Source of the DNA: a bacterium
Lineage (GTDB): Bacteria; JAJRZV01
Direction: 5' to 3'
DNA length: 7,552 nt
NCBI GenBank assembly: GCA_024275095.1
Contig: JAJRZV010000023.1
Span: 1-7,552, forward strand
The position numbers and the translations under genes were made by a program. The notes under the pieces were generated by a model, which did not search any database, was not told the origin of the DNA, and saw nothing but the letters and a program-made list of their open reading frames with translations. Shown here piece by piece: positions 1,985 through 6,281 of this stretch. How positions within the stretch are numbered: position 1 is the first letter of the stretch; the number at the start of each line of letters is the position of its first letter.

Positions 1985-1991
1985 AGGAGAT

Positions 1992-2066
1992 GTCCCCGTC
2001 GTCTAGCCAGGTCAAGGACACGGGCCTTTCGAGCCCGCGGCACGGGTTCAAATCCCGTCGGGGACA
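1992..2066 (+). tRNA. tRNA-Glu, anticodon TTC
   Basis: The acceptor GTCCCCG (1992-1998) pairs with CGGGGAC (2059-2065), with discriminator A2066. The anticodon stem CGGGC/GCCCG (2021-2025/2033-2037) has loop CTTTCGA with anticodon TTC at 2028-2030. The T stem ACGGG/CCCGT (2042-2046/2054-2058) has loop TTCAAAT. The D-arm GTCTAG...AGGAC is typical of bacterial tRNA-Glu. No CCA is encoded (TTAA follows). An exact 15-bp inverted copy of part of its T-arm (2042-2056) occurs downstream at 2147-2161. Confidence 0.97.
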
Positions 2067-2103
2067 TTAAGGCGTTATTGGTAGTAGAGGGGTAAATTTC
2101 TTT

Positions 2104-2146: not shown

Positions 2147-2220
2147 GGGATTTGAACCCGTCGCAGAGCGTGGAGGGCGGAGCCCAGATATAATGCGCGG
2201 TGGGTGGTGTGTGTATGAAA
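2147..2220. repeat. tRNA-downstream repeat unit A, beginning with an inverted tRNA-Glu T-arm
   Basis: GGGATTTGAACCCGT (2147-2161) is the exact reverse complement of tRNA-Glu bases 2042-2056, 90 bp downstream of that arm. It is followed by a G-rich tract with a small hairpin GGGC-GGA-GCCC (2175-2184) and a GT-rich segment (2196-2216). The same order (inverted T-arm, CGC-type junction, G-rich segment) recurs in units B (2463) and C (2699). Similarity among units outside the T-arm is weak but visible, for example GGCGGAGCCcAGATA here against GGCGTAGCCAGGATA in unit B. A TATAAT at 2189-2194 lies inside it but has no matching -35. Confidence 0.6.
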
Positions 2221-2311: not shown

Positions 2312-2399
2312 GGAGAGGTGGCCGAGTGGTCGAAGGCGACCGCCTGCTAAGCGGTTTCCCGCCAAAAGCGGGACGTGGGTTCGAATCCCACCCTCTCCG
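2312..2399 (+). tRNA. tRNA-Ser, anticodon GCT
   Basis: This is a class II tRNA. The acceptor GGAGAGG (2312-2318) pairs with CCTCTCC (2392-2398), with discriminator G2399 as usual for bacterial tRNA-Ser. The D stem is GCC/GGC (2321-2323/2335-2337). The anticodon stem ACCGC/GCGGT (2339-2343/2351-2355) has loop CTGCTAA with anticodon GCT at 2346-2348, reading AGC/AGT codons. The long variable arm pairs TCCCGC with GCGGGA (2357-2362/2368-2373). The T stem GTGGG/CCCAC (2375-2379/2387-2391) has loop TTCGAAT. CCA is not encoded (GTA follows). Its 3' end is duplicated exactly 237 bp downstream. Confidence 0.97.
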
Positions 2400-2462
2400 G
2401 TAAAGGATTCATTGAAGAAGGTTTGTTGCTGGTTTTGATATTGAATTATTCATGATGTTAAA

Positions 2463-2520
2463 GTGGGATTCGAACGCACGTCTGGCGTAGCCAGGATAAA
2501 GCGAAGCAATATGTAAGAGG
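2463..2520. repeat. tRNA-downstream repeat unit B, beginning with an inverted tRNA-Ser T-arm
   Basis: GTGGGATTCGAACGCAC (2463-2479) is the reverse complement of the tRNA-Ser T-arm 2375-2391 at 16 of 17 positions, starting 71 bp after that arm ends. It also faces the right-hand T-arm copy GTGCGGGTTCGAATCCCAC (2610-2628), giving a segment 2463-2628 with terminal inverted repeats that differ only by a 2-bp indel. Inside is a small hairpin TGGC-GTA-GCCA (2483-2493), then GGATAAAGCG. This is the counterpart of the GGGC-GGA-GCCC hairpin in unit A. Confidence 0.6.
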
Positions 2521-2548
2521 CGCGGGCAGTAGCAGGGGGCAACCGAGG

Positions 2549-2636
2549 GGTATAGGTTTGAGGTAGTACAGCAGGTTTTAAGATGAAAGGTTTGAGCGGT
2601 AGCGCGCCTGTGCGGGTTCGAATCCCACCCTCTCCG
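2549..2636 (+). pseudogene. Decayed tRNA-Ser-derived gene (tRNA relic)
   Basis: The 3' part is tRNA-Ser sequence: T-stem remnant and T loop, 3' acceptor strand CCTCTCC (2629-2635) and discriminator G2636. They sit exactly 237 bp from the same elements of the intact gene. Upstream the cloverleaf is broken. A D-arm-like TTTGAGCGGTAGCGC (2591-2605) lies almost next to the T-arm with no anticodon stem, and the best 5' acceptor candidate TGAAAGG (2584-2590) matches GGAGAGG at only 5 of 7. A second D-arm-like stretch begins at 2555, and AGGTTTGAG is repeated at 2554-2562 and 2588-2596. I read this as a tandem duplicate of tRNA-Ser that lost its middle. A chimera with another tRNA, or a mere attachment-site copy of the 3' end, is also possible. 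Confidence 0.5.
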
Positions 2637-2639
2637 GTA
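2614..2639 (+). repeat. 26-bp exact direct repeat of the tRNA-Ser 3' end
   Basis: Bases 2614-2639 are identical to 2377-2402, covering half of the T stem, the T loop, the 3' acceptor strand, the discriminator and three further bases (GTA). The copies are offset by 237 bp. Identity ends at 2403/2640. Downstream AT-rich spacers remain similar (for example TTGAATTATTCATG against TTGTAATTATCCATG), so the repeat extends in degenerate form beyond the exact core. Confidence 0.9.
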
Positions 2640-2698
2640 GTTAAATTTATCAACGAAGTTTAAATCCGGTTGAAGTATTGTAATTATCCATGTGGTGG

Positions 2699-2765
2699 TG
2701 GGATTCGAACGCCGGGAGGGGGGTGAACGGAGCAAACGGATGTGTGTGGTGGTTGTTTATGAGGG
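2699..2765. repeat. tRNA-downstream repeat unit C, beginning with an inverted T-arm
   Basis: GGTGGGATTCGAAC (2697-2710) is the exact reverse complement of 2616-2629 in the tRNA relic, again about 70 bp downstream of its partner. It is followed by a G-rich tract, CGGAGC (2729-2734) and a GT-rich segment ending TTTATGA. This matches the order in unit A (CGGAGC, then GTGGTGTGTGTATGA). It is the third copy of the same design. Confidence 0.55.
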
Positions 2766-2913: not shown

Positions 2914-2974
2914 CAGAACACCAAATATCAAATTAGACCAGACCCTGGAGTTCGGTTTGGGGTAGGGCAATGCA

Positions 2975-5618: not shown

Positions 5619-6281
5619 GTGAAATATTTAAGGGACGGCCTGATTTTAACATTATTAATATATATCGTGCTCGTTGCATTCGCTCTGGTATCAATTCATT
5701 TTTCTTCACTTGTAAGTTTGCGTCCTGTGGTGACAGCTGTTTTGTTTTTGTACGTGCCGCTTTTATGGGCGCGTATGAGAAGGTATCCCGTGGAATTGTT
5801 TGGGTTTAATTTTTCTGATTTGCCCGGCCAATTGAAGGATTTTATGGTAGTTGTGCTCTGGGTTTTCCCGGTATTTGCAGGAGGATTTTTATTCTATCAT
5901 CGGGTGATACTGGGTTTTCACTACACTTGGGCTATTCCTCATCAGCCTCTTCAAAAAGTACTTTTTCATTTATTCGGAGCAGCCCTTCCAGAGGAACTTT
6001 ACTTTCGAGGTTTCCTTCAGCAATTGTGTAATGAGGATCTGCGTCGTAGATGGCACTCCTTTGGTGCCTCGTGGGGCCCGGGAGTTTTTGTCTCGGCATT
6101 ACTGTTTGCAATGGGACACCTTGTTTTTGATCCCCGCCCCGAGCGTCTCGCGGTGTTCGTTCCCGGCGTTTTATTCGGCGTTCTCCGTGAGCGCCACGAC
6201 AGCATAGCGCTTCCCGTGCTTCTTCACTGGAGTGCCAACGTGATGGTAGATTGGTTGAGCGAGGGGATTCTTCTTTTCTGA
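5619..6281 (+). CDS. CPBP family glutamic-type intramembrane protease (CAAX protease/bacteriocin-processing type)
   Basis: 220 residues starting with GTG 5619, directly after the mutS TGA (5616-5618). AGGAG (5608-5612) lies 6 bases upstream, so mutS and this gene are very likely one transcript with coupled translation. The three family motifs are intact: EELYFR (125-130, EExxxR), FAMGH (163-167, FxxxH) and HWSAN (203-207, HxxxN). These residues form the active site inside the membrane. Hydrophobic segments at about 7-27, 36-51, 75-95, 114-124, 155-170 and 178-189 indicate a polytopic protein. Characterised relatives cleave prenylated or sorting-signal-bearing proteins, process peptides, or give bacteriocin immunity. 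Nothing here fixes the substrate. The secreted protein gene downstream has its own promoter, so a link to it is only a possibility. Confidence 0.93.
   Translation: MKYLRDGLILTLLIYIVLVAFALVSIHFSSLVSLRPVVTAVLFLYVPLLWARMRRYPVELFGFNFSDLPGQLKDFMVVVLWVFPVFAGGFLFYHRVILGFHYTWAIPHQPLQKVLFHLFGAALPEELYFRGFLQQLCNEDLRRRWHSFGASWGPGVFVSALLFAMGHLVFDPRPERLAVFVPGVLFGVLRERHDSIALPVLLHWSANVMVDWLSEGILLF

Follow-up and report, generated by a model that had tools for sequence, protein, structure and literature searches.

The tRNA-Ser gene in the window, i.e. the whole 7,552-nucleotide stretch that was analysed, is followed by one instance of a repeated unit, in which the tRNA 3' half and a trailer precede an inverted T-arm copy (A'), a hairpin module (H) and, displaced downstream, a direct copy of this 3' half (A), in this order. 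We consider it somewhat probable (roughly 55%) that such units are small mobile cassettes that lack genes, are docked on the tRNA gene as an array, enter via site-specific recombination in the T-loop and possess attC-like hairpins. Each cassette would comprise the tRNA 3' half (T54 to the 3' end), the trailer, A' and H, and would be inserted at G53 or directly behind it. Its 3' half would thereby restore the tRNA and the old 3' half would be pushed downstream to become A, so that A' and A would be inverted ends around H, folding into a DNA hairpin as the presumed recombination site. The recombination would be enzymatic, probably with the single-stranded hairpin as substrate and with a Xer-type or other tyrosine recombinase acting in trans. 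The evidence for mobility comes from haloarchaea; the source genome contributes the anatomy only.

The source genome (G000) has a size of 2.45 Mb in 136 contigs and is 97% complete; the window represents its contig C119. The 40 nearest genomes in the comparison set have only the domain in common with it. An earlier note on this DNA reported that positions 2463-2479 match the reverse complement of the T-arm at 16 of 17 positions, which is borne out, and the two arms extend to 20 nt (2372-2391 and 2463-2482; 95% complementary, 71 nt apart), representing the top inverted repeat of the window. The ungapped score of this match is 17.5 compared to a maximum of 8 for shuffled downstream sequence and a maximum of 6 upstream, and the DNA fold of 2372-2482 reaches z = -5.3, equalled by 0 of 200 shuffles. 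The TTCGAA core, which had been regarded as Ser-type, is present but not specific, since this loop is common to many tRNAs and the specificity resides in the T-stem; the copy is matched almost equally well by the other tRNA-Ser genes that share this T-arm. Further downstream, the direct repeat of the tRNA 3' half is identical at 26 of 26 positions with a spacing of 237, and when 2463-2639 is folded as DNA, its second copy is paired with A'. The core behind A' is a diverged form of the genome-wide core GCCGTGAGGC..GGCGAGCGGAGCGAGCATATAAT, as judged by comparison with 16 other tRNA loci of the source genome. The second tRNA of the window followed by its own inverted copy, as claimed before, is tRNA-Glu; a direct copy was looked for 3' of its A' and core and none was found. 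The tRNA-Lys gene that runs directly into tRNA-Glu is without an inverted copy. All features are listed in the table. Except for the tRNAs, nothing in the window scored over the Rfam gathering threshold.

Table. Features of the tRNA-Ser and tRNA-Glu loci in the window
Feature	Position	Strand	Basis or remark
tRNA-Glu(TTC)	1991..2067	+	docking tRNA of the second element in the window
A' of tRNA-Glu (2147-2161) and core CGCAGAGCGTGGAGGGCGGAGCCCAGATATAATGCGCGG	2147..2200	-	A' is 15 nt exact
tRNA-Ser(GCT)	2312..2399	+	ARAGORN; Rfam tRNA, 64 bits
T-arm of tRNA-Ser (G53 = 2379, T54 = 2380)	2375..2391	+	presumed docking site
Presumed first cassette unit of 237 bp (comprises tRNA 3' half with trailer, inverted T-arm and hairpin core; ends with G53 of the displaced copy)	2380..2616	+	direct repeat 2377-2402 / 2614-2639
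A', inverted copy of the tRNA-Ser T-arm	2463..2482	-	19/20 against 2372-2391
Core after A' of tRNA-Ser	2482..2520	+	hairpin CTGGCGTAGCCAG, followed by GCGAAGC...ATATG
A, displaced direct copy of the tRNA-Ser 3' half, from the T-loop to 2 nt past the 3' end	2614..2639	+	direct repeat
A' of a second, decayed unit (GGTGGGATTCGAACGC)	2697..2712	-	then degenerate core GTGAACGGAGCAAAC

An exact search for the core found only four sites in the source genome. The core has diverged, hence 43 tRNA genes of this genome and their surroundings were examined locus by locus. An inverted copy of a part of the own T-arm was found 22-82 nt downstream of 17 of them, with exact lengths of 24 nt for tRNA-Trp, 21 for Tyr, 20 for Leu-CAA and 17 for both Val and Ala. 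In 13 of the 43 cases no other tRNA of the genome matches the downstream copy better, two of these being identical tRNA-Gln copies at contig ends that may be one locus. Behind A' there is a small hairpin, in many cases GCC GTGA GGC, whose stem bases change together, and then the common stretch GGCGAGCGGAGCGAGCATATAATGCGCG. A direct copy of the tRNA 3' end follows in six loci (Ser, Arg-CCG, His, Leu-CAA, Leu-GAG and Arg-TCT); it comprises 20-26 bp, or 76 bp in tRNA-His. The contigs C24 and C121 both terminate in the same tRNA-Gln(TTG), with an identical inverted T-arm but different sequences past the hairpin, meaning that the unit is either present twice or polymorphic in the population.

The boundaries of the displaced copies were analysed in a profile of 53 tRNA loci, mostly haloarchaeal, with 66 direct copies. 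Their identity to the tRNA amounts to 0.80-1.0 from residue 52/53 to the last tRNA base and is approximately 0.4 right past the tRNA 3' end and 0.29 just 5' of the start. In tRNAs with a residue 52 other than G the displaced copies agree at this position in only 37%, hence the homology starts at G53. The haloarchaeal A' shows 0.9-1.0 identity limited to the T-loop and the start of the 3' T-stem, and A' of the source genome is often longer. An unbiased motif places the own tRNA at percentiles of 0.78 and 0.80 for two Halorubrum genomes and of 0.88 for the source genome, and variant T-loops or T-stems (Gly-CCC, Phe, Tyr) have downstream copies with the matching variants. The earlier view that the inverted copy tracks its own tRNA and is no fixed dispersed repeat is thus upheld, but the inverted copy alone is only one end of a unit, which also contains the tRNA 3' half, a trailer and a hairpin common to different tRNAs and genera.

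Direct indications for gain and loss of units were obtained from orthologous tRNAs of two Halorubrum species, in which single units are precisely present in one species and absent in the other. At tRNA-Gly(GCC), the 140 bp past the displaced copy of one species align from the first base with the 140 bp right after the tRNA of the other (128/140 identical). The same empty-site alignment was found for Val(GAC) with 29/32 and for Arg(CCT) with 85/88 identical positions, the latter comparison being complicated by a second insert type in both species. The Val(GAC) gene carries the T-stem pair G52-C62 in the unit-bearing species and A52-T62 in the empty one, and the displaced copy is a hybrid with G52 of the unit and T62 of the empty-site allele, i.e. 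with a junction across the T-loop. Such a hybrid would be the expected trace of recombination between residues 52 and 62. At Lys(TTT) the two species share the same trailer and the same H, differing in order and combination. Since units are precisely present or absent at orthologous tRNAs, simple copying from the adjacent tRNA, which had been offered before as one explanation of the inverted copy, is insufficient. Absence from close relatives, named in the earlier note as evidence against its reading, indeed occurs at single loci of Halorubrum, but appears as cassette polymorphism.

The same H sequences are found again at other tRNAs and in other genera, next to trailers that differ. H1 (47 bp), for example, lies between A' and A in opposite orientations at the tRNA-Leu of two Halorubrum species with different trailers, its copies agreeing at 46/47 positions, and is also found at the tRNA-Asp of a third genome from another genus. 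It was considered as a multi-copy transposon and rejected, because searched genomes contained at most one copy (once each in two, at a tRNA, and zero in the third). The orientation of H relative to the tRNA is constant in all but three of the tRNA-linked matches listed. One class of H folds with an outer stem formed by A' and A, an asymmetric unpaired stretch, an inner stem and a variable tip. Among 22 haloarchaeal A'-H-A sequences, the outer helix is 97.5% and the inner helix 95.4% paired, with covariation; 45 changes affect both sides compared to only one that is one-sided, 0 of 500 shuffles reach the observed value and slid controls stay far below. Co-variation maintained by pairing, the other explanation proposed before, is thus supported for the A'/A hairpin, and there are almost no G-T intermediates, which points to pairing in DNA, or to repair from a template, more than to an RNA helix. 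The covariation is best explained by a cassette that brings both halves along, and not by simple copying on the spot. Some H tips (L224, L233, L269, L279) contain nested hairpins, inserted as GAGCG-GTGCGAGGTGCGAGCGAAGCGAGCACCTCG-GCGA, which are reminiscent of small mobile repeats inserting into palindromes.

The start of the displaced-copy homology at G53, before T54 T55, can be compared to the G/TT point of the attC boundary box, where cleavage would lie as far as can be told from sequence. The attC R-box has the consensus GTTRRRY / RYYYAAC, and by eye the T-arm GTTCRAA / TTYGAAC fits this consensus at its GTT/AAC ends and not at some other positions. In integrons, attC sites of 57-142 nt consist of complementary boundary boxes, an unpaired spacer, an inner stem and a variable tip (PMC2727003). 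The 22 haloarchaeal sequences show this type of fold, with paired outer and inner helices and the asymmetric unpaired stretch in between. The units further resemble integron cassettes by their tandem arrangement, by AAC/GTT at the inner end of the outer stem and by the unpaired spacer, inner stem and variable tip, and they resemble attC by a hairpin site of 40-123 nt, the putative join at G/TT and the position of new units next to a fixed docking site (PMC2727003); the hairpins may also work in an attC-like manner, using these same elements. Unlike in integrons, the T-arm of a tRNA takes the place of attI, and in place of a promoterless gene there is the tRNA 3' half with its trailer, the 3' half being the sole gene-like part. 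Overall, the likeness to integrons appears close in topology and site architecture, as a resemblance and not as membership.

Several observations count against cassettes. With 100-240 bp, the units would make very small double-stranded circles, precise unit loss could result from repeat-mediated deletion between the 22-bp copies, and the 26-nt copy could be kept identical by gene conversion. Moreover, the direct repeat at tRNA-His of the source genome and at L206 spans the whole trailer (76-100 bp), like a plain tandem duplication. Such whole-trailer duplications are in line with the main rival explanation, which needs no dedicated enzyme: replication would stall at tRNA genes and the near-palindromic T-arm would promote template switching to the opposite strand, giving rise to inverted copies and tandem duplications, with quasi-palindrome correction keeping A' matched and repeat-mediated deletion removing units. 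It would also account for an A' that reaches beyond the T-arm to the variable region and anticodon stem, as in the 24-nt copy of tRNA-Trp, and for the almost purely Watson-Crick covariation, which is expected from templated correction; furthermore, repeat-mediated deletions have been described in a haloarchaeon (PMC3119063). However, H modules stay conserved from one tRNA or genus to another and move separately from the trailers, the direct copies end exactly at the tRNA 3' end, and orthologous tRNAs gain new units with unrelated trailers, which makes us regard template switching as rather unlikely.

Less likely still, the units may be scars of ordinary integrase-coding elements such as proviruses or plasmids that target the T-loop, in which case the direct copies would go back to former attR sites, and the inverted ones to arm sites of the integrase in degraded attP regions. 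Integrative elements of the T-loop class generate a repeat from the T-loop to the tRNA 3' end and the incoming element restores the tRNA (PMC8371274). The direct repeat of the same extent, the restored intact tRNA and the sharp boundary at the tRNA end agree with this type of integration, and integrated elements without an integrase do occur (PMC8371274). In contrast to such elements, the units are too short to contain an integrase or other gene, they are tandem and uniformly 100-240 bp, they contain the inverted T-arm copy and a folded module, and they occupy many different tRNAs per genome; gene-less tandem units with a conserved fold are also unlike random remnants. No integrase remnant was noted, and the source genome is without a non-Xer tyrosine recombinase. 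Finally, it is very improbable that A' is an RNA-level device, i.e. an antisense element located in the trailer, whose pairing with the T-arm would control maturation or termination, because despite the strong A'/T-arm pairing and the nearly constant H orientation, A' is preceded by what appears to be the intrinsic terminator of the tRNA in Atopobiaceae, in a gammaproteobacterium and in another bacterium, the two-sided covariation is unlike a typical RNA helix, no Rfam family covers the unit, and the replacement of terminators by units in the source genome, i.e. a link to missing T-rich trailers, was not significant (p = 0.19).

Regarding the enzyme that the cassette reading calls for, the source genome encodes two tyrosine recombinases, both of the XerC/XerD type and neither linked to the units. 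Their scores with the integron integrase model TIGR02249 were 141.7 and 148.6 bits compared to the cut-off of 265, i.e. the genome possesses no integron integrase. A mechanism based on reverse transcriptase was rejected, since RVT_1 is absent from the source genome. One Cas1 gene is present, without further link to the units. Among other small gene-less elements, SMR-A of Haloquadratum walsbyi (~110 bp) has terminal inverted repeats and no known transposase and is inserted into palindromes (PMC3119063). The units are similarly small and gene-less, share the terminal inverted repeats and the lack of a known transposase, and the SMR insertion into palindromes is comparable to the nested hairpins inside H loops; however, SMRs target IS605-type palindromes without target duplication (PMC3119063), whereas the tRNA units have tRNA-derived ends and duplicate the 3' half. 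As short gene-less hairpins the units also resemble REP elements with their RAYT transposases, and three RAYT-like genes exist in the source genome. Mobilisation by RAYTs was nevertheless rejected, because these genes are flanked by a different repeat, GGGGTCTGGTCTCAACATTTGACATT, which is absent from the tRNA units. The genes in question (L218, L219, L220) encode single-copy REP-associated transposase-like proteins flanked by inverted GGGGTCTGGTCTCAACATTTGACATT repeats, and the one protein that was scanned has a DnaA C-terminal-type domain. The GGGGTCTGGTCTCAACATTTGACATT repeat also occurs downstream of tRNA-Leu genes on contigs C77, C105 and C98, and in the window positions 2935-2950 (AGACCAGACCCTGGAG) are similar to the inner part of the RAYT-flanking repeat. 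Another side observation in the window is a CPBP-family intramembrane protease at 5619-6281, myxosortase-like, which adjoins mutS.

For the distribution in other genomes, the degenerate pattern GATTYGAAC..GAGCGGAGCGA, which derives from the bacterial core, was applied to one genome of each species; loci selected by such a pattern carry no frequency information. Among the matches listed, many immediately follow a tRNA gene; these stem from numerous haloarchaeal genera and, among bacteria, from Atopobiaceae, a Spirochaetota bacterium, a gammaproteobacterium, Nakamurella and other bacteria. These loci show the same anatomy, often in tandem, for example four units at the tRNA-Leu of Halorubrum xinjiangense; the likeness between bacterial and haloarchaeal loci is one of anatomy, seen with a scan pattern derived from the bacterial core. 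In an unselected survey of two Halorubrum genomes with 44 tRNAs each, an own-type A' was found within 150 nt at 15 and 14 tRNAs, and a motif chosen regardless of the own tRNA gave 17 and 14 matches compared to approximately one, and at most four, in shuffled sequence. Among 62 tRNAs from 29 loci of other phyla, the anatomy was seen in one genome only (G008, locus L031), and across 386 genomes the pattern GATTYGAAC..GAGCGGAGCGA matched the source genome only. Rfam 15, searched over A'-H of 12 loci, gave tRNA and SRP matches only, and the searched viral contigs contained two matches, neither of them an intact tRNA array.

More tentatively, one may envisage a gene-less cassette system that spans both domains, in which tRNA T-arms serve for docking, the A'-H-A DNA hairpins act as attC-like sites and a host tyrosine recombinase, possibly Xer-type, exchanges the units, i.e. 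an integron-like system without an integron in which tRNA 3' halves are repeatedly replaced. If true, tRNA genes of archaea and bacteria would host a cassette exchange system for which no description was found in the open-access literature, to which our search was confined. Such a system would bear on the preference of mobile elements for tRNA genes, could be a precursor or parallel of integron attC sites and would offer a natural route for swapping tRNA 3' halves, as the co-transfer of residues 52 and 62 in tRNA-Val would exemplify. The presence/absence differences among related Halorubrum strains make cassette exchange testable in culture.

Two further types of arrangement were observed. An IMG/VR contig (L104, 158-393) and an Anoxybacillus sediminis record (L114, 3225-3458) contain tandem units of ~180 bp with antisense tRNA-like sequence and GAGCGGAGCGAAGCGAAGG, with no predicted intact tRNA adjoining. 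The second insert type of haloarchaea is located on the acceptor stem and consists of inverted acceptor sequence, a hairpin, and a direct copy of the T-stem 3' strand and acceptor. It was found at L124 (tRNA-Ala), L134 (tRNA-Asp copies), L260/L259 (tRNA-Arg(CCT)) and L254 (tRNA-Gly(GCC)), and follows the logic of the T-arm units with a different join point.
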